From Nymphaea colorata (lineage: Eukaryota > Streptophyta > Magnoliopsida > Nymphaeales > Nymphaeaceae), in contig NC_045144.1 of NCBI RefSeq assembly GCF_008831285.2, positions 18,183,716 through 18,247,715 of the forward strand: a stretch of 64,000 nt of DNA, given 5' to 3'. A program made the position numbers and the translations under genes. This document shows positions 29,640 through 62,368 of the stretch, one piece after another. Numbering within the stretch: the stretch's first letter is position 1; each line of letters begins with the position of its first letter. The notes beneath the pieces were generated by a model that saw only the letters and a program-made list of their open reading frames with translations, was not told the origin of the DNA and ran no database searches.

Positions 29640-30470
29640 TCATTGGAATGCTGCCCTCATACTTTAACTTCATTATTGATGGCTCGACCCGCCGCGAAGA
29701 GGGAGACGAGAGACGGGATGGGGGAGCCGAGCGGAGAGGGCGGAGAGGGAGAGGAAACCAGAGAGGGAGAGGGAGAGGGGGAGCGGGCGGGGCTGCGACA
29801 CCCTGGCTCGCACTCTAGAAGGCCTCGCCGGCGTTCCTCCGACGACCTGACTGTGGTTCCCTCTCCAGATCCTCGAAGCTGATCCTTCCGGCGGCTGTAG
29901 CAGCAGTTGGAGTGAGTAGAAGCAAAGTGGAGAGTCTCAGCCACAGCCATTTCTCCGGGAGCCCGTCCCTGCTTTGTAGTCGTGGATGCCGGGAAGGGAG
30001 TTCGCGGCGCCTCGACGAGACGCCGACGGTGTGGGAGCGGCAATATTAGTAGGCCTGGGTGAAACATCAAAGTAAGTTGGTGACAAAAATCTGAGTAGAA
30101 GCAACTGGACTTAATCTTCACTCTATTCTAATAAGGCAAAGTTGAATTTCATTTGGGGTGTTTTGGTGCAACTTTTTTTCTTTCCACCTGACAAAGGACA
30201 TGTGGTGGTTGGTGCAAAGAAAAGTAGGGGTGCCTTCCTACCAAAATGAAACGACAATGTTCCAAGTTTCACCCACAATATTTTCAAGACAGAATGTCCG
30301 CACCCTTATCAAACACGTTACTCAGTGCTAGTAAATCAAGCTGAGCCTGAGTTGGGCCTAGACTTGTCCTGGCCGTGTGAAGCCCTGGATTGTTAGTGCT
30401 TGCTAAACCAGAACATCCCCATGTTCGCCCTTAATCAGAGACTTGTTGAGGAATTGGTACATAACTGCCT
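29640..30470. other. Copy-1-specific insertion or replacement, GC-rich in part
   Basis: Replaces the right arm found in copies 2-4. The portion 29,680-30,050 is GC-rich with GAGAGGGAGAGG-type runs, and a minus-strand ORF (29657-30121) is open but dominated by Ser/Pro/Arg low complexity. No family is recognised; it could be a captured gene fragment. Confidence 0.4.
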
Positions 30471-42212: not shown

Positions 42213-42323
42213 CAGTGGTGGAGCTAGAAGCATTTTCCTCAGGGTCAGTGGTAGTTTTAGATTAAAACTTGAAGCCTGAAAGAGCACTTGTATATAAATA
42301 AGGAAAAAGATATGGAGTCAGCA
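42213..42323. mobile_element. Truncated hAT-like MITE
   Basis: Left part of the element seen whole at 53299-53473 (starts CAGTGGTGGAGCTAGAAG). The right end was removed by the deletion at 42323. Confidence 0.5.
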
Positions 42324-42825
42324 TAGAGGAAATCTTTATCAGTTCCTTTGGTGCTCAGCCTGGGTGGCCCTTTTAGGTACTGCAGCGTTTTAAAAATGGG
42401 GCCTGCTGAAGGCCTAGGCATAATTTATTTTTTGTCTTGGTTGAGAAATTTAGAAATCTAAACTGAAGATTGTTTTACATTGAAGAAAACACATATTCTT
42501 CAGTGATGTCAGTCCTGTTCATCAAAAGAATGTCTGTAAAAATTTGGAGGTTGTGCTATAGGCCATGTACAGAGAGAGAGAAAGTCAGCGTTAGGTAACA
42601 AAATGCAGAGGACTCCTTGATCTGCAGAAGAAAAACGCCAAGGTTAATGGAAAATCACATGATAGCAGATGAATTGAATGCCATTACTTCACTGTGGTTG
42701 TCGTCATCACCAGAGAGAAATGAAGAGAATCGGAGACAGGGAAGAAGCTGAGAAGATGAGCAGACGCCCAGCATAATGAAGAATACAAAGACAATTTTTG
42801 GTATGGATAGAAAAAATAGTACGAA

Positions 42826-44555
42826 CGTCTCTTTCAGTGACCAGTAACTCCAAATTAGTGGCCATGCAACTTCCACATCCTATACGCAAATCTGGTTATG
42901 ATCCAAGTGAAGCGCATGTTTGCAAGTTAAACCTGCTAACCCTTCTCTTATTTGGTGACAAATCGGCCGTAGGACATCTACCAAATTCAGTATATGCTGG
43001 CAGGATCGCCATTGGTGAGTACATGAGAAACCTTTGACAAGTGTTTATTTTTTTTTTTTTTCCAATGAAAGACCGGAAGGGCAAGAGCCCCCACATTTAT
43101 TAGTATAATAAAAATTAAGAAGGGGAAGGAAATAACAACCCGGTCAACAGCTAAGGAACATGTAGATAAGGCTAGAGAGAGACCTTAAGATCCCCAGTAG
43201 AGGCTTCAGGTCTACAGTAGTAACATCATCACAACAAGCTCAAAAAAGAAAAAAGTCTCTTTATTAGATTGGCTCTTGGAAAGGTACAAGTGAGAAAGAA
43301 GAATTTTAATGAGTGTGAAACACTTGTAAATCTCTATGCATGTCACCCTAATTAAAAACCTCCCAACATCAATTTATAGCTGTGATAACTAGGTCCCCAA
43401 TGTCATTCGGAGTAAAAGGTAAAATTCCATTAAGAAACAATTTCAGGCAACACCATTTCAGCATCTCTATTAGATGCTATCTGTTCACAGAATGTAAAAT
43501 GCGTAATAACAACTCATGCATGTACAAAAGAATCTTCAAAAAGGAGGCAATACAAATTAAACAGTACAACTTCATGTTCATGGATCTACTCTTACCCTAT
43601 ATATAAACTGAATGCTTGTAGATTCAAAAACATCTATCAAATTAGCAAGATATTTTTTTGACACCTCTCTTTACTAGAATACGAAATATCTCTTTTAAAA
43701 TTATATAAGAAGATAGTACTACCATCATGAAATGACTATTTCTCCACTACCAAATTTTCCATTAAATGAGATTGAAGGTTAGAAGTTAGAACTCAAAATT
43801 TAGGCATCCATTTCTAAACGAACCTGCAACCATCCCACCAAATAATATCTTCTTTAAAGAAAGAAACTATATACAATCCTTTTTTTTTACAAAACATGAA
43901 ACAAATAAATTTCCAAATTTTGATTGCATAGCCACACTTGCTAAATAGGAGAGCATGGTCTTCATTCTCCCTCTTACAAACAAGACATTTGGAAACCAGG
44001 GTCGATCATAAACCGTCCGACATTCTAGAATCTGATAACACAGCCATGACAAGCTAGCTAAGAATGTCATGGATGTCCTCTCCAGGTTTAATCTTTGCAA
44101 TGTGCGTATTTTCTGGGTAAACCAACCCCAAAGAAACATCCGGGCAGTAAAAGATGCCCCAAACAGAGGAACATTATGGTGAAAAACATTATGCTCAACC
44201 TGATTTTTGTTATGTATCATATTTAAAATGGACATAGATATTTCTAATCAAAGACACCAAATTCTTTCATACCATTGTTTTACCTTGCTATCAGCAAGCT
44301 CCATTGCTTCATTCAGACGCAACTCACCACGGAGGCTGACTGACATGCAAGTTCTTAACCAGCCCGTTCCAACAACTCCCTACTACTTTTGGTTGTAGAC
44401 GAAGGAGGCATTTTTAGTAACTACCCACCTTTCAAATTCGATCGACTTTTTCATTTCGGGTTTTCTCAATTTCATAAATCATCTTTTTGAGTTGATGGGT
44501 ATGCGATATATATATTCAGGAAGTGGAGAACTCCCCTTCTCAGAGCGCACACCTC
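42826..44555. repeat. Left inverted arm, copy 3
   Basis: Same orientation as 26541-28470; the inner end is next to the DUF761 copy. Confidence 0.75.
43046..44300 (-). mobile_element. LINE 3' end in the left arm, copy 3
   Basis: The minus-strand frame 43867-44235 reads ARMFLWGWFTQKIRTLQRLN and continues to CLVCKRE-like sequence altered to NVLFVRGRMK. The T-run at 43049-43061 is the inverse of the poly(A) end. Degenerate. Confidence 0.6.
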
Positions 44556-44592
44556 GCAGGGGGAGACTCTACCAGAGAATAAGGAGGAGGAG

Positions 44593-45147
44593 ATGAAAAT
44601 GGAGATCAACTCTGATACTAGAGCCAAGCGTCTGCAGAACGTCCTCCGCGTAGCCATTTCGATGGTGAAGAAAGGCTTCACGCCCAAGCGCAAGCTCGCC
44701 ATGGTGATGCAGAAAGGCAAGAAGCTTGGCAGATCCTTCCGGCGCATTTTCTTCCCCCACCGCTTCCAAGGCTTCCGACCGCAGGCCTACGAGTTTTCCT
44801 GCAGCAACAGCTCCGGCTCCCCCTTATTCCACGCCGGCACCATCTCGGGCGCCAAGATGAAGCTCCCTTACTGCTTCCCTTCCCTCGCATACGGCAACCC
44901 TCCTCACGCGGACGACTCCGACGACCATGTCATCATCAACGATCCCCAATTGGAGCTGTCCGCCTCCGATCTCTCCAATATCGACCTTGCCGACGGTGAC
45001 AAAATCAGCCCCTCCATCTCGCTGCTTCCATGAGAGGACGACGAGGAGGAGCATGATGCCACGGTGGACGAGAAAGTCGAGGAATTTATAGCTCGATTCT
45101 TCGAGCAGCTGAGGTCGCAGGAGCGCCGGCAGAACATGCAGGGTTAG
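44593..45147 (+). pseudogene. DUF761-family gene copy 3, premature stop
   Basis: Open from ATG 44593 for 146 codons with the full N-terminal block including YEFSCSNSSGSP. The TCA codon of copy 2 is then TGA (45031-45033), removing the acidic stretch and the DUF761 C-terminal motif. The same frame after the TGA still reads VDEKVEEFIARFFEQLRSQ. The copy 2 stop codon is CAG here, and the next in-frame stop is TAG 45145-45147. It may be a pseudogene or encode a truncated protein. Confidence 0.75.
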
Positions 45148-45535
45148 TGGAGCATGTCAAAAATGCGGGCGTCAATTCCATGTTTATGAACTATGGGTGT
45201 TAACGTGGGAATGAAAAGGGTGGCCGTTACGGGCGTCCGGAGTGTCTAATGGTTTCTGCTATGTGATATAATAACACGAGAGTGTCTCATGGTTTCCCTA
45301 TCAGTGGTGATATGATAAGAGTCATGGTTTTAGGAGCAGAGGTGACAATCAAACAATGAGTCCTTTTTTTCTTAGCAGTGGTGATATAATAATCCAATGA
45401 TGAGCTTGTTTCTAGTGATGTCTTCATTTTCATCATCTTCTCTTATTTTCCTTCACTCATCTTCTCCTCTTATTTCTGGTAAACCAAAAATCCACCGCCC
45501 AACAAAGAGCAACAGCATGGTACATGGTTTGCTTT

Positions 45536-45660
45536 CAAATCTTTGGAATGCTGCCATCTTCTCCTCTTATTTCTTATTTCTTGTAAAAGAGAAAACTGAT
45601 CGCTCAAATCTTTGGAATGCTGTCATCTTCTCTTATTTCTTGTAAAAGAGAAAACTCATC
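45536..45660. repeat. Local tandem duplication of about 68 bp, copy 3
   Basis: CAAATCTTTGGAATGCTG through GTAAAAGAGAAAACT occurs twice (from 45536 and 45605). It is also present in copy 4 (58979-59110) but single in copies 1 and 2. Confidence 0.8.
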
Positions 45661-45799
45661 CCCCAGCATAAAGTAGCACTTCACTCAACCCATTGCTTGT
45701 TATGATACATAGCTTACTTTCGGATCATTGGGATGTCGCCTTCATACTTCAACTTGCACATTGATGACCATCTTTTTACAGTACAGAACGATGATGGTA

Positions 45800-47640
45800 C
45801 ACTCCTCCCCTACGAGGTGCACAGCTTTGAGAAAGAGAATTCTCACACTTCTTAAATAAATATGTTTTCGGATAGGAAGAATTTGCATACCCATCAACTC
45901 AAAAAGATGATTTACTAAATTAAGAAAACCCAAAATGAAAAAATCGATGGAATTTGAAAGATGACTATGTGGGCAATTGCTAAAGATATCTCCTTTCTTC
46001 TAGAACCACAAGTAGTGGAGTGTTGTTGGAACAGGCTTGTGAAGAACTTGCATGTCAGGCTCCGTGGTGAGTTGCGTGTGAGTGAAGCAATGGAGGTTGC
46101 GTGTAGCAAGGTAAAACAATTATATGAAAGAGTTTGGGGTGTTTGAATAGAAATACCTATGTCAATTTTATATACAATACATAATGAAAATCTAGTTGAG
46201 CGTAATGTTTCTCACCATAATGTTCCTCATTTTAGGGCATCTCTGATTGCCCGGATCTTTCTTCCTAGTTTGTTTACCTAGAAAATATGTTCATTGCAAA
46301 AATTAAACCTAGAGAGATGATCCATGACATTCTTAACTAGCTTGTCAAGGATGCGTTATCGCAGATTCTAGACTGTTGCATGGTTTATGATCGAGTCTTG
46401 CTTCCAAATGTCTTGTTTATAAGAGGGAGAATGCATACCAAGCATGCTCTCTCTTATTCAGCGTGTGTGACTATGCAATTAAACATTAAAAATTTATTTG
46501 TTTCAAGTTTGGTAAGAAAATGAAGATATATATAGTTTCTTTCTCCAAAGAAGATACTATTTGGTCGCATGGTTGCATGTTCATTTAGAAATGGCATACT
46601 ATTTCAGTTTCATTCCATGAAAAATTTGGTAGTGGAGAAATAAGGCATTTCATGATGGTCGTACTATCTTTTTATATAATTTTAAAAGAAATATTTGGTA
46701 TTTTGATAAAGAGAGGTGTCAAAAACTATCTTGCTAATTTTATAGATATTTTTGAATCAACATGCATTTGATTTAGGTATAGGATAATAGTAGGTCCATG
46801 AACATAAGATTATACTGTTTTAGCTTAAATTCATATTCCTCCATTTTGAAGAATCCATTGAACATGCATGAGTTGTTATTACGCATTGTAGATTCGAGGA
46901 ATAGACTGCATCTAATAGAGATACTGAAATGGTGTTGTGAGAAATTGTTTTTCTTGATGAAATTGTATCTTTAATTGAGAATGGCATGGGATACCTAGTT
47001 ATCATTAGTAAGAATTGATGTTGGAAGGTCTTTAATTAGGGTGACATGCATAGACACTCACAATTGTTCCAAACTCATTAGAATTCTTCTTTCTCACTTG
47101 TTCCTTTCCAAGAGCCATTCTACAAGAGATACTTTCTTTTTTGTACTTGTTGTAATGATGTCACGAATGAAAACCTCTGGCCTCTACCAAAGATCTTACA
47201 CCTGTTTGGGAAATATAATTGTTTGAAATTATTTTTAAGGTATTTTATGAATCAGCTTCAATATTTTGGTCATATTCATGAAACAGTTATATACTGTGTC
47301 ATTTGCCACCAGACCCTTAAGGTCACTATGTAGCCTTATTTATTGGTTCCTTTGCTGTACCCTTCACCTTCTTAATTTTAATTATATAAATAAATGTGGG
47401 ACTCTTGCCCTTGCAACCTTTCATCAAAAAAAAAAAAAACTTCTAACAAATTTCTCATGCACTCCTTATGGATGGTCCGACCAACATAGACTGAATTTGG
47501 TAGGAATGATAACCCAAACAAGGGAAGGGGTTGCGGGTTTTACTTGCAAAGGATGTGCTTCACTAGGATCATAACCAAATTTGCTTTTAGGATGTGAAAA
47601 TCCATTTCCACTAATTTGGTCTGGTCATTGTAAGCTAAAA
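45800..47640. repeat. Right inverted arm, copy 3
   Basis: Reverse-complement relative of 42826-44555 over its whole length, clearly diverged (point changes and small indels). The spacer between the arms is about 1.25 kb and holds the DUF761 copy. Confidence 0.75.
46230..47440 (+). mobile_element. LINE 3' end in the right arm, copy 3
   Basis: Plus-strand inverse of the left-arm element, ending in a run of 14 A (47427-47440). Coding frames are broken. Confidence 0.55.
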
Positions 47641-48757
47641 TTTATTTTTATGTTTTTCACAATATGTGAGGAGTTGAGAATAGTTCTACATTGAAGATCA
47701 TAAAAATTAAACTTAGAGTTCTAAATAACCATTTGCTATACTACAAGTACTCTTGGTACATAAGTGCCATGTTCGGTCGTTCACACAAGTAAGGACGAAG
47801 TGGTTGCAAATACTTGCAAAAGTAATGTGACACTTTCCTCTAATTCCAATACCTCAAAAGTTGTTTATGTTATGTAAAACAGCTTCTCACATATCATGAC
47901 ATCATGTAAGCCACATTAAAGGTGAACATCTAAAAAAAACATTCCATAAGAATGACCATCAGTTGCATGTAGATAAAATAACAGAACAAATTATTCCATT
48001 AGAATCCATTAGTTGCATGCATGAGACATTCAATGTACAATAAGAACTATGTGCAACAAACAACATGCAGGTTTCTATTAGAAATTGTTAAAAGATAAAA
48101 ATCTTATATCACTCAATGTTTTAACATATATAAAATAAACTAATTTTGTCTTTGCCGCTTGTTCCTTCACAACTTATTGGTAATATGATGGAAACCATAA
48201 AATCCTCTTGTTTCCTTGCCATTGCACTTTCATTGGCAGCTCACGCTGTTGTTGTTGTTGTTTTTTTTTTGTGAAAAAAAAAAACAGCCTGCAACTCCCT
48301 TGAATGTTGTTAAAAAAAACTTAAAAAAAAGACAATGGAAATAATAAACTTTAACATGGTTTTACACCATGGAAGGCTGCTATCTGCCTTTGGGATTGAT
48401 AGTGTGAGGTTTGATATTTATACTCTTTCTTTACAATAATCTCCATAAATTTCTCCTAAATTTTTTTGCAACTCGGGGGCGACGTTATTATTATTTTTGT
48501 TGGCGTCTTTACCTTCATAGGTACCATTTCCATATGGGTCATAACATTGACTTTAATAATAATAACCTTCTTTTTGTTGGGAAGATCCTGTTTAATAATA
48601 TTAGATACAATGCACGACGCTTTCCATTCTCATCTTACCCAATCTTTAAGTTGTATTTGAAAACTCCAAGAGATCTTTCAATTGATTTTTTCTTTTTGCA
48701 ATATCAGTTGATGACCCTATTTGTGGATAACAATATAATTGATATATATATGTTCAA

Positions 48758-48903
48758 TGTTGCAATGTTCTAAATGTTGTCTGATGACTAAAATTTTAAA
48801 AATTATGACTAAAAAATAGTCACTAAATTAGTTTTTAGCCACAGTTAGCTTTAATGAGTATTTATGTTTATTTTAGCAACTATCTTGCACATAGTAGCAT
48901 TTG
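48758..48903. mobile_element. MITE-like segment, copy 3
   Basis: Same structure as 31662-31807. Confidence 0.4.
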
Positions 48904-49033
48904 CACACACAAACACAATCATATTGGAAGTAAAGGTTTTCCAATAGATAAGGAACTAGTTCTCCAACGCAACCAGCATAATTGGCTTAATCAATTTCCA
49001 ATGTGATAAGGAGCCAACCTATTCTCAGATTGG

Positions 49034-49035
<2 letters not shown>

Positions 49036-49095
<60 letters not shown>
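49036..49095. repeat. (TA)n microsatellite
   Basis: About 60 bp adjoining the 49099 hairpin. Confidence 0.95.
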
Positions 49096-49098
<3 letters not shown>

Positions 49099-49132
49099 GG
49101 ATTTTTTCATCCGGGTTTGGATGAAAAAATCC
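49099..49132. repeat. Perfect 14-bp stem hairpin
   Basis: GGATTTTTTCATCC, loop GGGTTT, then the exact inverse. In copy 4 (62400-62433) one terminal base differs, in copy 2 (38329-38347) only a 7-bp stem remains, and in copy 1 it is absent. Confidence 0.85.
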
Positions 49133-51340
49133 TCCAGCCTCTCACAACATATCGCCTGATGCAATTTGGATAGAGCTCAAGGTGGTTGGAGAATTTTATG
49201 CAATCTGACCTTATGGATATGAACTTAGAGGTGACTTGATCAGGAACATGTATAATGTTAGTCATTTTTTAACTTTAATAATGTTTTTTATAATTAAAAA
49301 AAAAACGAACGGCTCTTCGTAATATGAAAATTCTGATAGCCAAAAAATAAAGTTTTGTTACAACAATAACTTGAATTAAAACATGTTGGCATTGAATTAT
49401 TTCTTAAGAATATTTTAGGATACACATATTTTGTTTATAATATTTTTTAACATAAAATTAAAAGGCCTGGTTTTTCTTACTTACCTTAGTGATCTGACAC
49501 ATATTCACTACTCACGAGTCTGAGTTCGATCCAGAGTATATCCATATGAAAACTGTTTTCACAATCCGAATCCAGTCTGGTCAATCCAATATTTGAAATT
49601 ACTTCTGAATCCAAATCTGAATTTTAAACCAAATATAACTGACTTGGCATTGGATATATGATATTTATTTATAGCTAAATCAGTTCAAATATCTGAATTC
49701 ATTCGGACGCTGTTTCTTAAATATGAATCTGATCTGATTTCTTCACCAGATATTAAAACCTTTTCCATATCTGATTTTTTTTTTTTATACAGGTCAGCCA
49801 TATATTTTATCCATATGGTATACACTGACATCCCTAAATTCCTCATTAGTAAATGCGATTTCGAAGTAAAAGATAAAGAACAAAATGTTTTGATCCAAAT
49901 CAGAATATGTGTTATTCAGGAAAATGCAAAATAACCTTACAAACATCCACCCCACTTCACTTGAATGGGCTTAATGGCCTCCACGGGCACACTTAAATAG
50001 GCTTAATAATCTTGAGAGGCATAGCATTCCTGGTTGAACTAGTGGCTTGGTGAAAGTCCAATAATCAATTAGATTTATTTGACAGACGTATTGCTCTCCA
50101 CCTAAGTTCTAAAGTAGTCTTAAACCTTTGGGAGCAGGGAAAGGGGGGGTAGATTCGACCTCTTAGCGAATCGCCACATAATGGGGCATACTTCTCACCA
50201 ATAATAGTGAAAAATGTTAGCAAAAAAAATCGAGAAGAAACCATTAATGTGTTTTATAAGTTTTAGGTGCACTGTTCATATATTGTTAAAGATGTCGAGC
50301 AAATAGCATCAAATCAGATATACGCTTTATCATATATAATTTATCTATTGTAATCTCCATACTTGAAAATATTTATACCACATTTAAATGTGATTTTTAA
50401 ATTTATAATCCTAACATTAGTATGCATCTGACGTTTAACTTCACATCTGAATCTGAACCCCATTTTAAAATTACAACTGAATTCAGACCATGTTATGATA
50501 TATTAACGGACTGCAAAATGTATGGATATTAGATATATTATATTTACTTAAAACTGAATCTGAATCAACATCTAATCAGATATATATTCAAAACTGAATC
50601 CGGACCTGCACCCGATTAGATGTCAGTTTTAAATTTGGATTTCTTAAAAAAATGTAACATTTTTTCTGTAACCTATTTTTTGAAGCATGATAGGGTATCC
50701 GGTTTACTTGAATCCATAGAGCATCCAACCCTTTGGCAACCGTTGTTTTCTACGTGCGGCAAATGAGTCTGAAAATAAAATTCCACAAACAAATAAATCC
50801 CTCGCCAGGCTAAGTCGGATCTTGGATCTTGGGTCTAGACCGCATTCATCTAGATTTTTCTTAGGAAAATTTCTTGTCTGGAGCCACTCTCTCTCTCTTT
50901 GCTACAGTTTCATAAAAACTACCAAATAGGAGTCTAAACTTAATGTCATGAATATAAGAAACAAATATGTCGGCTGCAATTCTTTTATCAATACCATTCT
51001 CTAGTATATTATATTTTATTATTTTCACTTTTATTCAAATCTGTTATGTCGCATTAAAAGGTAAGCATGTAACTTAATGAAAATGGTAATAACAAATATA
51101 AATAACATTCTTTTATCAAATTAAAGAACCCGTACTTGAGATGTTTATTTGATAGTTTTTATGACAAGTATAGTTCATATTAAGAAAAATACAAAGTATT
51201 TTTACAAAAAGTATAACTAATGGGGATTGATCATAGGTGTGAATGTTCTGCAAACCCTTCCATACTTTGAATTATACAAAATTTCAATCATGCTGTAAAT
51301 TGTAGCTTCTTCTGATCCCACCCATTTCCTCCCTCCTTCC

Positions 51341-51378
<38 letters not shown>

Positions 51379-51650
51379 AGTGTATATTCAGAGAAACACG
51401 CAGAAAGGTTCAACAGTTCAGCTGGAAATATCACTTACCTTAAGGTTAATGGCCATGTCTAATGGCATTCAGATTTGAAGGTTTTAACTGTTGTCTAATA
51501 CGCTTGTTTAATAACAGAAAAATTCCAAGTTAAAGTTGGTTCTTGCTGATCTTCAGTGAATGGACGTACATACGAAATCAAGAGAGAGATCTGCACAATC
51601 GGCCTGCATATAGTGTCTGCCAACAGTCTCAAAATATTTCCCCAGGTATG

Positions 51651-52015
51651 ATGAGTGTTGGGTAGTGGTAGTGGCCAAGAGCCCTATCATTCATCTCGTA
51701 TCTCGTAACTGCAAGTGGGCCCACTTGCAGTTATGAGCTTTAATGCTCACCTAAAATCTCTCACTCACTGTAACCTTTGTTGGACTTGGGGAAAACCTAA
51801 GGGGCTGACTATTTATATCCAGCGAGACTAAGTAATATATGGTTGATTACACATGAGGAGCCCCTTAGAAGGAAACCCCAAAACTGACATACTCTTCTAC
51901 TTCCTCTTGTGTTGTTTTCTACAGGGATGAGTTCTACATGGAACTAAAGCTGCTGGTGATCTTACAGGCTACCACTTGCAACTTCCGCTGCATCGTAAGT
52001 TTCCCCAACAATGAG
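51651..52015. mobile_element. Solo LTR with 5-bp target duplication
   Basis: The 355-bp insertion at 51656-52010 begins TGTTGGG and ends CCCCAACA, and is flanked by ATGAG on both sides (51651-51655, 52011-52015). The empty site is visible in X copy 1 (about 23,156) and X copy 2 (about 40,958). TG...CA ends, the 5-bp duplication and the lack of coding sequence indicate a solo LTR. A TATTTATAT word near 51,810 is a possible LTR promoter. A perfect 28-bp palindrome lies at 51706-51733. Confidence 0.85.
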
Positions 52016-53298
52016 ATGGTGCCCACCAGAAAGCAGAGGAACCGTTGGCAGGAAAAGAATGCAGCAGTAAATACTTCTGCTCTTGAAATATGTAGATAGT
52101 TTCCGTTCTTCCAACTGAAACATACAAAGCTTCTGCTGGTTCTATGCCTCAAAGGCATTTCAAAATGATTTCCCAATGATAGGAGGTTCCTATCACGGTA
52201 GGAAAAATTTTCCCATGGACATTAACTCCAGTGCAGATGCTATCTTGTGGTCTTGGGCATTGCCAAATTAAGGATACTATGCTAGTTGGTACTCAAATGG
52301 AATGGTCACTTGACAACTCCATTCTCAGCAGTGGTTGGTAACATAAATGATGCAAATCAAGTTCTAACTTGATTTGAGACACACAAAAAAAAAAAAAAAT
52401 CTGCCACTTTTGTCATTCGTCACAGGGGGTCGGGTTAAATTCCTAATATCTCATGAAAGTCAAATTTGGCAAAATAGATCTTGAATATATGTGAGTCGTT
52501 GCAAAGCTACATTGCTTAACCTGGCTCTGATACACTTTGATGCAAATTAAATATTCAATTTGCTAAGGGAATATGTCATTGCTTGTTTGCGATCCCTATG
52601 CTAAATTCTTGTTCACTCATGCAGTTCAGATTTAATGGAATCAATTGCTAATTGAATAGTTCATATATAAGAGTCAGGTAAATCTCTCTCCCTCAACTTT
52701 GTTCTGTTACCACTTTGATGCAATTCAATAAATTCCGATTGAAGGGAAAATCGCAATAATTTCAATGCTCATACAATTCAGCCATGACTTACCACAAGTC
52801 CAATGAACGACTCATTTATTTATTGCATAATGATTCAAATGTATAAATAAAAAATGCATTAGTTCCACGGTGAAACAATAGCTGTTAAACAGCAGAGTGA
52901 GATCAGACTACTAATTTTACATCTATGGTTTTCATCAAACCAGGGATTAATTGTATTTTCACAGCGAAAAGGGTCTGAGCTCCGACCACAAGCATACACA
53001 ATCTTTTCTGTTTCTTACGAAATCACAGTGAGGCAGTGGGAAATACTTGCACTCTTTTGACCAGGTCTGCCCACGCGCCGAGTTCAAGCTGAGTTAAGGT
53101 GGCTCCGAACCGGCTTCATGCCTATCATGCTCTACTGGAACTCAAGCTGCTGTCAAGTTCTGCGGCTTGAGCCCACACACCCGAGCCAAACAAGACTCAA
53201 GCTTGACTCCAGCTTGTTTCTGCTAAACTTGAGCCATCCTGCACAGAAGATGATCCTGCAGTTTAAGTGTATATGTCGTTCAAGATTCGGGTCCAAAT

Positions 53299-53473
53299 CA
53301 GTGGTGGAGCTAGAAGCATTTTCCTCAGGGTCAGTGGTAGTTTTAGATTAAAACTTGAAGCCTGAAAGAGCACTTGTATATAAATAAGGAAAAAGATATG
53401 GAGTCAGCATATATAAATAATATTATTTGTGTGGTGCTCGTGGGGGAATTGACCACACTTGACTCCGCCACTG
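53299..53473. mobile_element. hAT-like MITE with degenerate target duplication
   Basis: Starts CAGTGGTGGAG and ends CTCCGCCACTG (10 of 11 inverted). Flanks GTCCAAAT and TTCCTAAT agree at 6 of 8 positions. Termini resemble those of the element at 5053-5244. Confidence 0.6.
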
Positions 53474-54418
53474 TTCCTAATCTGTGTCCAGCTCGTCTTA
53501 AGACAGGTTTAAATTGAAATCCTAGCCTTCCCAATGGGAACCTGCTGAGGTCTCGGGATCCCCTCCTTTTCATTGATGATTGAACACAGAAACAGCAAAC
53601 AAACATCAAAGACCCTTACACAAGCCTTATGGAGTCCTCACTTTTCAAAACTTCCACAATTAAAGAGGCACTAAAGGTACATAACTTTTCAAGTTTGTAA
53701 AGGGAAACAGGTCTGTTGTGAGCCCCTTTTCCAAGCTTCAAAAATTGTGCTTCTGGATCCATTACTAATCTTGCTTTCAGGGTGAAAGTAAAATAATATT
53801 TAAGATTTTGCAGAAAACAGGATTTCAGACACCCTTTTCCAAATACTTTAAGAAAAAGTGAGGCTGGAAATAAACTATAAGCTCAATTTCCTTCACATTT
53901 TGACAAAGAAGTTCAATTTTAAAGTTGTAAGTTTAATGTCGCCAACCCCTTTTCCTAAATACTTTTACAAATTGGTATCAAAGCATGGTTCAACACTTGT
54001 ACACGAGTTCCACACGCATAACAGATTTGAACGATGGTTATTTGAGTATCTCCCTCTCCCTGTATACAAATTCACATTGGACCTGTATCAGAAACCATAG
54101 TCTTAAAGAATTGACCGGCATTATTTAGCCAGTCCAGAGGTAATCTCGTTCCCTAGTCTGCCATTAATGGCATTGACGTGTCCCTTTCAATCCACAACGT
54201 TTGACAGAAATTTCTAGCTACCAAACAATTGGCCTATAACTTTCATGTCTCTCTCATTTGAAGTTCTTTCAAGTGTGGAAATTATTGCAAACAGAGGTGA
54301 TATATTTCAGCATTTTCTCTTTCGCTAATTTGTTGCATGCACTATTGTGGGTTTTAGTTTTCCTCCCTCAAAATTGTGGGTCTGAACTTCTCCTTCATCC
54401 ATTAGGTAAGTGATAAAG

Positions 54419-54551
54419 TCGCAAGAAGGATAAAAAATGGACAGGAAGAAAAAGGAAAGAATGCCGCAAGAAGGATAAAAAAATGGACAGGAAGAAAAAG
54501 GAAAGAATGTCGCAAGAAGGATAAAAAATGGACAGGAAGAAAAAGAAAAGA
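54419..54551. repeat. Threefold tandem repeat of 45-46 bp
   Basis: GCAAGAAGGATAAAAAATGG with GACAGGAAGAAAAAG starts at 54421, 54466 and 54512. X copy 1 has a single unit (24,794-24,833), so this is a local expansion after duplication. Confidence 0.85.
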
Positions 54552-55533
54552 ACTACCACAAAAAGTGAAAATTTCATGACATCATAAAAGTTGCAGTAGC
54601 TGGTGAATAAGTGCAGTAGAACCAAAGAAGAAAAACAACAGCCATGAATCATGAATGCCATCACAAAGTCATCAAGCAACAAAGGTTATACTCTGAAAGA
54701 AGATCCATTTGATTGGAAACCTACGAAGTTTAATGTGAAGCATCCCCTGATAAAAAGAGTTGCAGTTGAAAACTATCACTGTGAGACCTAAAATGCAAAT
54801 TCTAGCATCTCCAAATTCTACAGACATTCATTCAATCCAGTGATATAATATAACTTTTGTTTATAATATTTTAGTTCGTTTTCCCCTTCAGGAAGGCTAT
54901 CAAGTGATCCAGCATATTCAAGTATAATCTTGGGAAGAAGCAGACAGTATTTGCCTGGGCGACAGCTTCCATGAATAACAAAATCCGTATACTCTGCAAA
55001 AAATCAGAATCAGAGACCATGGCCATTATGTAGAGGAATCATTTGCCATGATAATAAGTTCTGCTGCCTACCAGGTGCAGTCTAACATGAAGCTTTGGCT
55101 GTCTTCATTTGTAGTCTTCACCTTCCTCTGTGACAGAAAAAATCTGTCACTCAAATCTAATCAGGCGAATTCATTCAAGGCAGTCCAGAGTCCAGACATA
55201 TAAATTTTGCTCGAATTCTTTTAAGTTTTAACCAACCACGGGAGCATCTTTTAAGGTTGCATATTTTTTAACCCCTGCAGTATTGCTCCTTTCTACAACC
55301 TACCAAAGTTTTCTCTTGAGGGTCATGATGACTCGTCTTTGTTATTATGTCTGTAGCAAGAAGCACTAGACAGGCCAATAGAAATATGAACAAGTACTGT
55401 TAAAGAAAAGCGTTATACAATATTGAGATAGTATCTGAAGCACACTAACTAATAATAAAGTGTCAAAAGATACGAGTTGACATGTATATTAACAGTAAAT
55501 TGTACAAGCAGACAGGGAACATGTTCTATATCA

Positions 55534-55575
<42 letters not shown>

Positions 55576-56268
55576 CAAAAAGGTGCATAACAGTAACAAA
55601 AAACATAGCATAAGTACATGAGTGGTAAAACAAAGAAAGAAAGAGTAAGAGGAAGAAGATGATGATTATGACACAGATGACTATGGAAGGAAGAAGGGAG
55701 AGAAAAAGAAGGGGTAGAAAAATAAAAAAGAAAAGGACAAGTAGAAGAAGAAGAAGAAAAGTCATAGAGGAAACCTTTATCAGTTCCTTTGGTGCTCAGC
55801 CTGGGTGGCCCTTTTAGGTACTGCAGCGTTTTAAAAATGGGGCCTGCTGAAGGCCTAGGCATAATTTATTTTTTGTCTTGGTTGAGAAATTTAGAAATCT
55901 AAACTGAAGATTCTTTTACATTGAAGAAAACACATATTCTTCAGTGATGTCAGTCCTGTTCATCAAAAGAATGTCTGTAAAAATTTGGAGGTTGTGCTAT
56001 AGGCCATGTACAGAGAGAAAGAAAGTCAGCGTTAGGTAACAAAATGCAGAGGACTCCTTGATCTGCAGAAGAAAAACGCCAAGGTTAATGGAAAATCACA
56101 TGATAGCAGAAGAATTGAATGCCATTACTTCACTGTGGTTGTCGTCATCACCAGAGAGAAATGAAGAGAATCGGAGACAGGGAAGAAGCTGAGAAGATGA
56201 GCAGACGCCCAGCATAATGAAGAATACAATGACAATTTTTGGTATGGATAGAAAAAATAGTACGAACG

Positions 56269-59239: not shown

Positions 59240-60935
59240 TCCTAGGAGGTGCACAGCTTTGAGAAGGAGAATTCTCTCACTTCCTAAATAAATATGTTTT
59301 TCGATAGGAAGAATTTGCATACCCATCAACTCAAAAAGATGATTTACTAAATTAAGAAACCCGAAATGAAAAATCCATGGAATTTGAAAGATGACTATGT
59401 GGGCAATTGCTAAAGATATCTCCTTTCGTCTAGAACCACAAGTAGTGGAGTGTTGTTGGAACAGGCTTGTGAAGAACTTGCATGTCAGGCTCCATGGTGA
59501 GTTGCGTGTGAGTGAAGCAATGGAGGTTGCCTGTAGCAAGGTAAAACAATGATATGAAAGAGTTTGGGGTGCTTGAATAGAAATATCTATGTCAATTTTA
59601 TATACAATACATAATGAAAATCCATTTGAGCGTAATGTTTCTCACCATAATTTTCTTCATTTTAGGGCATCTCTGATTTCCCGGATCTTTCATCCTAGTT
59701 TGTTTACCTAGAAAATATGTTCATTGCAAAGATTAAACCGAGAGAGATGATCCATGACATTCTTAACTAGCTTGTCAAGGATGCGTTATCGCATATTCTA
59801 GACTGTTCCATGGTTTATGATCGAGTCTTGCTTCCAAATGTCTGGTTTATAAGAGGGGAATGCAGACCAAGCATGTTGTCTCTTATTCAGCATGTGTGAC
59901 TATGCAATTAACATTGGAAATTTATTTGTTTCAAGTTTGGTAAAAAATGAAGATATATATAATTTCTTTCTCCAAAGAAGATACTATTTGGTGGCATGGT
60001 TGCAGGGAAATGGCATACTATTTCAGTTCCATTCAATGAAAAATTTGGTAGTGGAGAAATAAGGCATTTCATGATGGTAGTACTATCTTCTTATATAATT
60101 TTAAAAGAAATATTTGGTATTTTGATAAAGAGAGGTGTCAAAAACTAGCTTGTTAATTTTATAGATATTTTTTTAATCAACAAGCATTTGATTTAGGTAT
60201 AGGAATAGATTGCATCTAATAGAGATACTGAAATGGTGTTGTCAAAAATTGTTTTTCTTGATGAAATTTGATCTTTGATTAAGAATGACATTGGAGACCT
60301 AGTTATCATTGCAAAAACTTGATGTTGGAAGGTCCTTAATTAGGGTGACATGCATAGAGATGACGATTGTTCCGTACTCATTAGAATTCTTCTTTCTCAC
60401 TTGTTCCTTTCCAAGAGCCATTGCACAAGAGATATTTTCTTTTTTGTGCTTGTTGTAATGATATCACCAATGAAGACCTTTGGCCTCTACCAAAGATCTT
60501 AGCTCTTGTTTGGAAAATATAATTGTTTGAAATTATTTTTAAGGTATTCTATAAATCGCCTCAATCTTTGGGTCATATCATGAAACAGTTACATATTGTG
60601 TCATTGGCCAACAGACCCTTAAGGTCACTATGTACCTTATTTATAGGTTTCTAGTTGTATCCTTCACCTTCTTAATTTTTATTATGTACATAAATGTGGG
60701 GCTCTTGTCCTTGCAACTTTTCATCAAAAAAAAAAATAGCAAATTTCTTATTCACTCTTCATGGATGGTCCGACCAACATAGACTGAATTGGTAGGAGTG
60801 ATAGACCCAAACAAGAGAAGGGATAATATGTTTGACTTGCAAAACTTGTGTTTCACTAGGATCATAACCAAATTTGCTTTTAGGATGTGAAAATCCATGG
60901 CCACTAATTGGTCTTGCTGGTCATTGTAAGCTAAA
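59240..60935. repeat. Right inverted arm, copy 4, with LINE 3' end
   Basis: Reverse-complement relative of 56269-57998. It contains a broken plus-strand LINE 3' end finishing in an A-run (60726-60736). About 180 bp present in copy 3 (46,750-46,910) is missing near 60,200. Confidence 0.7.
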
Positions 60936-62113: not shown

Positions 62114-62368
62114 CTATGTGCTAAATGTTGTCTGATGACTAAAATTATAAAATTTATGACTAAAAAATAGTCACTAAATTAGTTTTTAGCCACAGTTAGC
62201 TTCACTGAGTATTTGTGATTATTTTAGCAACTATCTTGCANNNNNNNNNNNNNNNNNNNNNNNNNNNNNNNNNNNNNNNNNNNNNNNNNNNNNNNNNNNN
62301 NNNNNNNNNNNNNNNNNNNNNNNNNNNNNNNNNNNNNNNNATAAGGAGCGAACCCATTATCAGATTGG

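Follow-up and report, generated by a model that had tools for sequence, protein, structure and literature searches.

The window analysed here is a stretch of 64,000 nucleotides from Nymphaea colorata (contig NC_045144.1, C7:18183716-18247715) that contains a tandem array of a DUF761-family gene, whose third copy (44593-45147, plus strand) is enclosed by two long inverted arms. This arm-gene-arm figure is best read as a single inverted duplication of the upstream region of the gene, with the remnant of a long interspersed nuclear element (LINE) nested in it, which was then multiplied in tandem, and not as a new mobile element. With a probability of about 0.7, it represents an old inverted segmental duplication carried in an unstable array, in which the right arm is a passenger; there is good support for its structure, the order of events is probable and the lack of function is a judgement. 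A search with a 601-bp piece of the gene returned 10 matches (10 of 10 candidates scored), all of them on C7: five copies in or just past the array of the window (R1-R5), four on the other strand at the start of C7 (L1-L4) and one paralog at C7:17455749, which is 73% alike. The genome searched comprised 407.8 Mb in 783 contigs, and its DNA search scores the best candidates only, so that copies can be missed.

In copy 3 (R3), the left arm (~42829-44571, plus strand) and the right arm (~45801-47634, minus strand) are colinear reverse complements with about 20% divergence, as found by self-BLASTN and by an end-to-end alignment that runs from ~42829 to 44571 against 47634 to 45801. Self-BLASTN of the window gives two opposite-strand pairings, of 43186-44574 with 47198-45795 (79.1% over 1437 columns) and of 42831-43189 with 47634-47316 (71.8% over 362 columns). 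The left arm aligned locally to the reverse complement of the right arm, the comparison that the first-pass annotation had proposed, scores 1449, whereas none of 100 shuffles exceeds 34. Inter-arm identity varies with the treatment of gaps, from the 79.1% of self-BLASTN to 82.0% of 1671 columns in a multiple alignment (Kimura two-parameter distance, 0.207) and 85.1% in a strict local alignment (1426 identical positions in 1676 ungapped columns; 1908 columns with gaps). No tandem repeats were detected within 42300-48000. The limits given for these arms by the first-pass annotation were right within a few tens of bases; its description of the arms in copies 2 to 4 as colinear over their whole length needs the qualification that the left arm of copy 2 lacks about 0.8 kb internally. 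Between the arms, the gene is followed by its 3′ flank (45148-45800), which makes up the remainder of the loop according to sequence and alignment.

The left arm is composed, from its outer to its inner end, of an outer flank (42830-43046), a decayed LINE 3′ end on the minus strand (43048-44255, its 5′ limit at ~44255 being an estimate) and a promoter-proximal piece with the 5′ untranslated region (5′UTR) of the gene (44241-44571, plus strand, delimited by genome search and by its likeness to the upstream region of the paralog). This last piece includes a run at 44507-44515 that we take to be TATA-like. The LINE fragment shows the order found in plant LINEs, a zf-RVT region and then a poly-A tail, seen as a T run at 43048-43061 in the left arm and, on the plus strand, at 47426-47439 in the right arm, where sequence and alignment place its end. 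The zf-RVT domain was matched in one of three pieces, a left-arm frame read with X at stops, at E 0.0015 and with 19.5 bits, which falls short of the gathering score (27.5). In a genome search with this frame, for which 150 of 182 candidates were scored, at least 80 matches were obtained; the 48 that lie outside the array are weak (best E 1.3e-5), although several lie in open frames of several hundred codons, and the one relative that was checked (1065 amino acids in the fetched stretch) contains RVT_1 (E 1.4e-33) and zf-RVT (E 1.6e-15).

Homology between the arms does not end with the LINE. The outer 200 bp past its poly-A are homologous between both arms, scoring 135 where 200 shuffles reached no more than 22, and the counterpart of the left outer flank is at 47440-47640; at the inner side homology enters the 5′UTR and comes within about 20 bp of the ATG at 44593 (score 54; at most 19 in 200 shuffles). 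Because homology extends past both edges of the LINE, both arms are copies of a single block in which this element was already present. The first-pass annotation had named two unrelated insertions of one LINE as one finding that would refute its reading, and the same 3′ fragment with its poly-A is indeed present in both arms in opposite orientation, on either side of the gene. However, homology passes the poly-A on one side and enters the 5′UTR on the other, and a search with the inner 354 bp at E 0.01 (17 of 17 candidates scored) finds only the nine left and eight right arms, so that two independent insertions are highly improbable and were rejected, being contradicted by the flanks common to both arms. 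The arms differ most by an insert of about 120 bp in the right arm (47200-47320), a short dispersed repeat with no left-arm counterpart at the matching site, which occurs in at least 22 other places of the genome (40 of 54 candidates scored), three of which also have a nearby match on the opposite strand; it is presumably a miniature inverted-repeat transposable element or something like it.

The side from which the block was copied can be approached through the paralog, which has no arms. The inner pieces of both arms resemble its upstream region, with scores of 197 for the left arm (maximum of 91 in 500 dinucleotide shuffles) and 172 for the right arm (maximum of 77 in 500), which suggests that the block is the sequence upstream of the gene itself, from which the right arm would have been copied in inverted form. 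The 5′UTR of the left arm has a match of its own at the ATG of the paralog, with a score of 69 (highest of 100 shuffles, 39). These likenesses are only suggestive of the left arm as the source and the right arm as the inverted copy. No arm matches were found in the 30 kb around the paralog at E 1e-10. The 3′ flank of copy 3 does not match that of the paralog either, with a score of 74 where 100 shuffles reached up to 84.

An unrooted tree of 17 arms (nine left and eight right) separates left from right arms with a support of 100. Distances between left and right arms are 0.19-0.23 in all pairs, while they do not exceed 0.09 among left arms and 0.10 among right arms; from these distances alone, recent exchange is not apparent in any pair of arms. 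Right arms form one clade, so the duplication probably took place once, before the spread of the units that carry it. Copy 1 lacks a right arm, and, given similar rates, it is likelier to have lost it than never to have had it, because only 0.085 separates the left arm of copy 1 from that of copy 3, as compared with 0.207 between the arms.

Several observations weigh against this reading. The right arms attach in the tree between the left arms of R1 and R2 and the remaining left arms (support 94), and a later origin of the right arm with faster change would be compatible with this tree, which has no outgroup. Copy 1 follows copy 3 to 29681 and resumes at 30454 without any right arm between these points. 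The likeness to the paralog is displaced, its best part being 831-562 bp before the ATG of the paralog; the innermost 200 bp of the right arm have no match with the paralog (score 38, with up to 46 in shuffles), and the paralog is absent from the matches of the BLAST genome search with the inner 354 bp at E 0.01. As for the nested LINE, the other left-arm frame and the right-arm piece (two of the three pieces) gave no Pfam match, and the longest left-arm frame gave only an unrelated family below threshold.

On balance, the following course of events is proposed. A block of about 1.75 kb, comprising the upstream region and 5′UTR of the DUF761-family gene with the decayed LINE 3′ end already within it, would have been copied in reverse about 0.65 kb downstream of the gene, possibly via template switching or a similar rearrangement. 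Both copies of the block would then have drifted to their divergence of about 20%, and units of about 13.4 kb, each with arm, gene and arm, would have been multiplied head to tail, presumably by unequal crossing-over. In our judgement, the right arm is most likely a passenger with no selected function.

A variant of this explanation would be that the whole gene was inverted together with its upstream block, forming a convergent (tail-to-tail) pair of which the second coding part was later lost. The end of the right arm inside the 5′UTR is consistent with such a remnant, and so is a weak minus-strand match, at ~45450-45403, to the start of the gene, whose score of 46 exceeds the maxima of 42 and 35 obtained with 100 simple shuffles. 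However, the same score was reached by 16 and 15 of 1000 dinucleotide shuffles, and the match is short, purine-rich and not significant once the search is allowed for; in its best alignment to the gene, 45150-45800 has no other trace of coding sequence. A second inverted gene copy was rejected on these grounds, and the gene-pair variant as a whole is possible, though rather unlikely.

As far as the searches reach, the inverted duplication does not occur outside the array. The DNA searches located arm sequence in the two array segments of C7 and, leaving the dispersed repeat aside, at only one other place, C10:17209583-17210345, where it is in pieces; the search with the gene piece found no gene on C10. 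This degraded relic lacks the stretch around the LINE poly-A; its local matches are of 73.1% over 294 columns to the left arm and 77.7% over 282 columns to the right arm, and a match of 37 columns seems to extend about 20 bases past the outer end of the right arm, none of which is built upon here. The relic was also tried as an outgroup for the arm tree and dropped, as the joint alignment placed it badly (43-44% differences), and the resulting distances were not used.

These results bear on the proposal of the first-pass annotation that the figure could be a foldback or Pack-type mobile unit whose termini are very long, in which case the enclosed gene would have been captured. Its geometry, long inverted arms around a gene, is all that speaks for it. 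No arm-gene-arm unit was found at unlinked places among the candidates scored (including 40 of 54 in the arm search), the only occurrences being the two segments of C7, and no target duplication abuts the outer arm ends in any of six copies (about 30 bases inspected per end), where the longest shared words are 4-5 bp. In addition, the inner arm ends are the own upstream region of the gene, and the arms are diverged by about 20%. On this evidence, the figure does not appear to be a mobile unit, and a mobile origin is extremely unlikely. Six pieces of the window were scanned with Pfam, and none of them contained a transposase.

The inverted duplication is carried in units of the array, of which that of copy 3 occupies 42322-55762 (plus strand; 13,441 bp). 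Unit length is 13.2-13.4 kb in four units (L2, L3, R3 and R4, the last including a 100-N gap), and units R2-R4 and L2-L4 are 91-99.9% alike, with 99.85% between L2 and L4 and 99.41% between L2 and L3. The remaining part of the unit contains no long frames, the longest one overlapping 47640-55763 being of 138 amino acids from stop to stop. R4, L2 and L4 have a common junction in the right arm (at window position 60203 in R4) that omits about 110 bp and is absent from R3, R5 and L3; the right arms of R4, L2 and L4 differ by no more than 0.001, and the junction is a recombination junction. Since junction types alternate along the L segment, growth of the array by two-unit steps is suggested. The first-pass annotation had also proposed that the arms could promote the instability that built the array; this junction does lie inside the right arm, although that does not make the arms the builders of the array. 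In copy 1, the ~770 bp at 29681-30454, GC-rich at first, have no convincing match within the window.

The segment at the start of the chromosome (C7:1-42895, reverse strand) holds four array units, the outer two of them cut, and ends at a 100-N gap. The array of the window also has a 100-N gap, at 62241-62340. Among the R copies, L1 is nearest to R5 and L4 to R4. The contig of this segment may have been misplaced in the assembly, its proper position being close to the gap of the window.

The gene itself is broken in many of its copies. In copy 3 a TGA at 45031-45033 precedes the DUF761 motif, which persists downstream, and the shortened frame has no match in Pfam. The unbroken copy R5 matches DUF761 (PF05553) with E 7.4e-05 and 22.7 bits, against a cut-off of 22, and a piece of the paralog that is cut inside the motif gives E 0.18. 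By eye, the motif is in frame in four of the nine array copies (R2, R5, L2 and L3), of which R5, L2 and L3 reach a shared end and R2 stops slightly earlier. The frame is broken in the other five, copy 3 included: R3 and R4 (copies 3 and 4) have a common TGA before the motif, and R1, L1 and L4 contain frameshifts. Some of these breaks may be assembly errors. Compared with the paralog, R5 has a ratio of non-synonymous to synonymous substitution (Ka/Ks) of 0.31 over 180 codons, and R2 one of 0.28 over 172 codons, which points to a gene formerly under constraint; between R2 and R5 the ratio is 0.87, from 3 synonymous and 9 non-synonymous differences, too few changes for judging its present state.

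A transcript running across both arms would fold as a long imperfect hairpin. For the plus strand of 42826-47640, the predicted fold has an energy of -2262 kcal/mol with 1431 inter-arm pairs, and for the minus strand -2388 kcal/mol with 1461 pairs, whereas two controls with a shuffled right arm gave -1166 and -1165 kcal/mol, with 322 and 224 inter-arm pairs. The hairpin transcript put forward by the first-pass annotation is thus structurally possible as far as prediction goes, and copy 3 has the long inverted repeat, by prediction capable of forming hairpin RNA, that is expected of a small interfering RNA (siRNA) locus. Read-through, or antisense transcription from a promoter in the right arm, could then generate double-stranded RNA and siRNAs that damp the DUF761 copies or the LINE. 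In favour of such an RNA-silencing locus, beyond the pairing predicted for its arms, are four perfect inter-arm stretches of at least 21 bp (30, 26, 24 and 22 bp), the orientation of the 5′UTR and promoter-proximal piece of the right arm, which point back toward the gene, and the precedent, by analogy, of the soybean I locus (PMC6710647). However, the gene is assumed to have its promoter within the left arm, in which case its mRNA would lack most of that arm; moreover, the arms diverge freely, copy 1 has no right arm and copy 2 a reduced left arm, and 22000-64000 contains no Rfam match at the gathering score. This last test is weak, since siRNA loci in general are not known to be Rfam families. 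Taken together, a silencing locus seems unlikely, and it is more doubtful still that the inverted promoter copy, by driving antisense transcription or completing the hairpin, would make the units of the array silence themselves, which would have allowed the array to grow without dosage cost. If RNA data showed siRNAs here, the array would provide a natural example of an amplified gene family with inverted repeats of promoter type.

Some known systems share part of this organization. In the inverted-duplication model, plant microRNAs (miRNAs) reportedly originate from an inverted copy of part of a gene. The precursors of miRNAs are short foldbacks, whereas in Nymphaea the arms are of 1.7 kb, the coding sequence lies in the loop and there is no Rfam match. 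As regards the DUF761 family (PF05553), copy R5 of the array has its motif, whereas copies 3 and 4 of the window stop before it; among the papers listed on DUF761 and tandem or inverted repeats, none deals with such an arrangement, as judged by titles and openings of abstracts. In maize, Mu killer is likewise a partial inverted duplication, proposed to yield a hairpin or antisense RNA, although it derives from a DNA transposon and is active in silencing, in contrast to the upstream region of a gene found here (PMC3440606).

The closest described locus found is the I locus of soybean (CHS1-3-4/CHS4-3-1), in which a hypothetical gene lies between two inverted arms of 10.91 kb (PMC6710647). Both loci have long inverted arms around a stretch with one gene, hypothetical in soybean, and the I locus is also in a region of segmental duplication, whose copy number shifts by non-allelic recombination, and has gaps in public assemblies (PMC6710647). 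Unlike those of the Nymphaea array, known from its DNA alone, in which arms diverged by about 20% contain upstream sequence and a LINE remnant, the 10.91-kb arms of soybean are identical and hold CHS genes, and siRNAs have been reported (PMC6710647). The first-pass annotation knew of no described element of this composition; by analogy with the soybean I locus, the arm-gene-arm composition does have a precedent.

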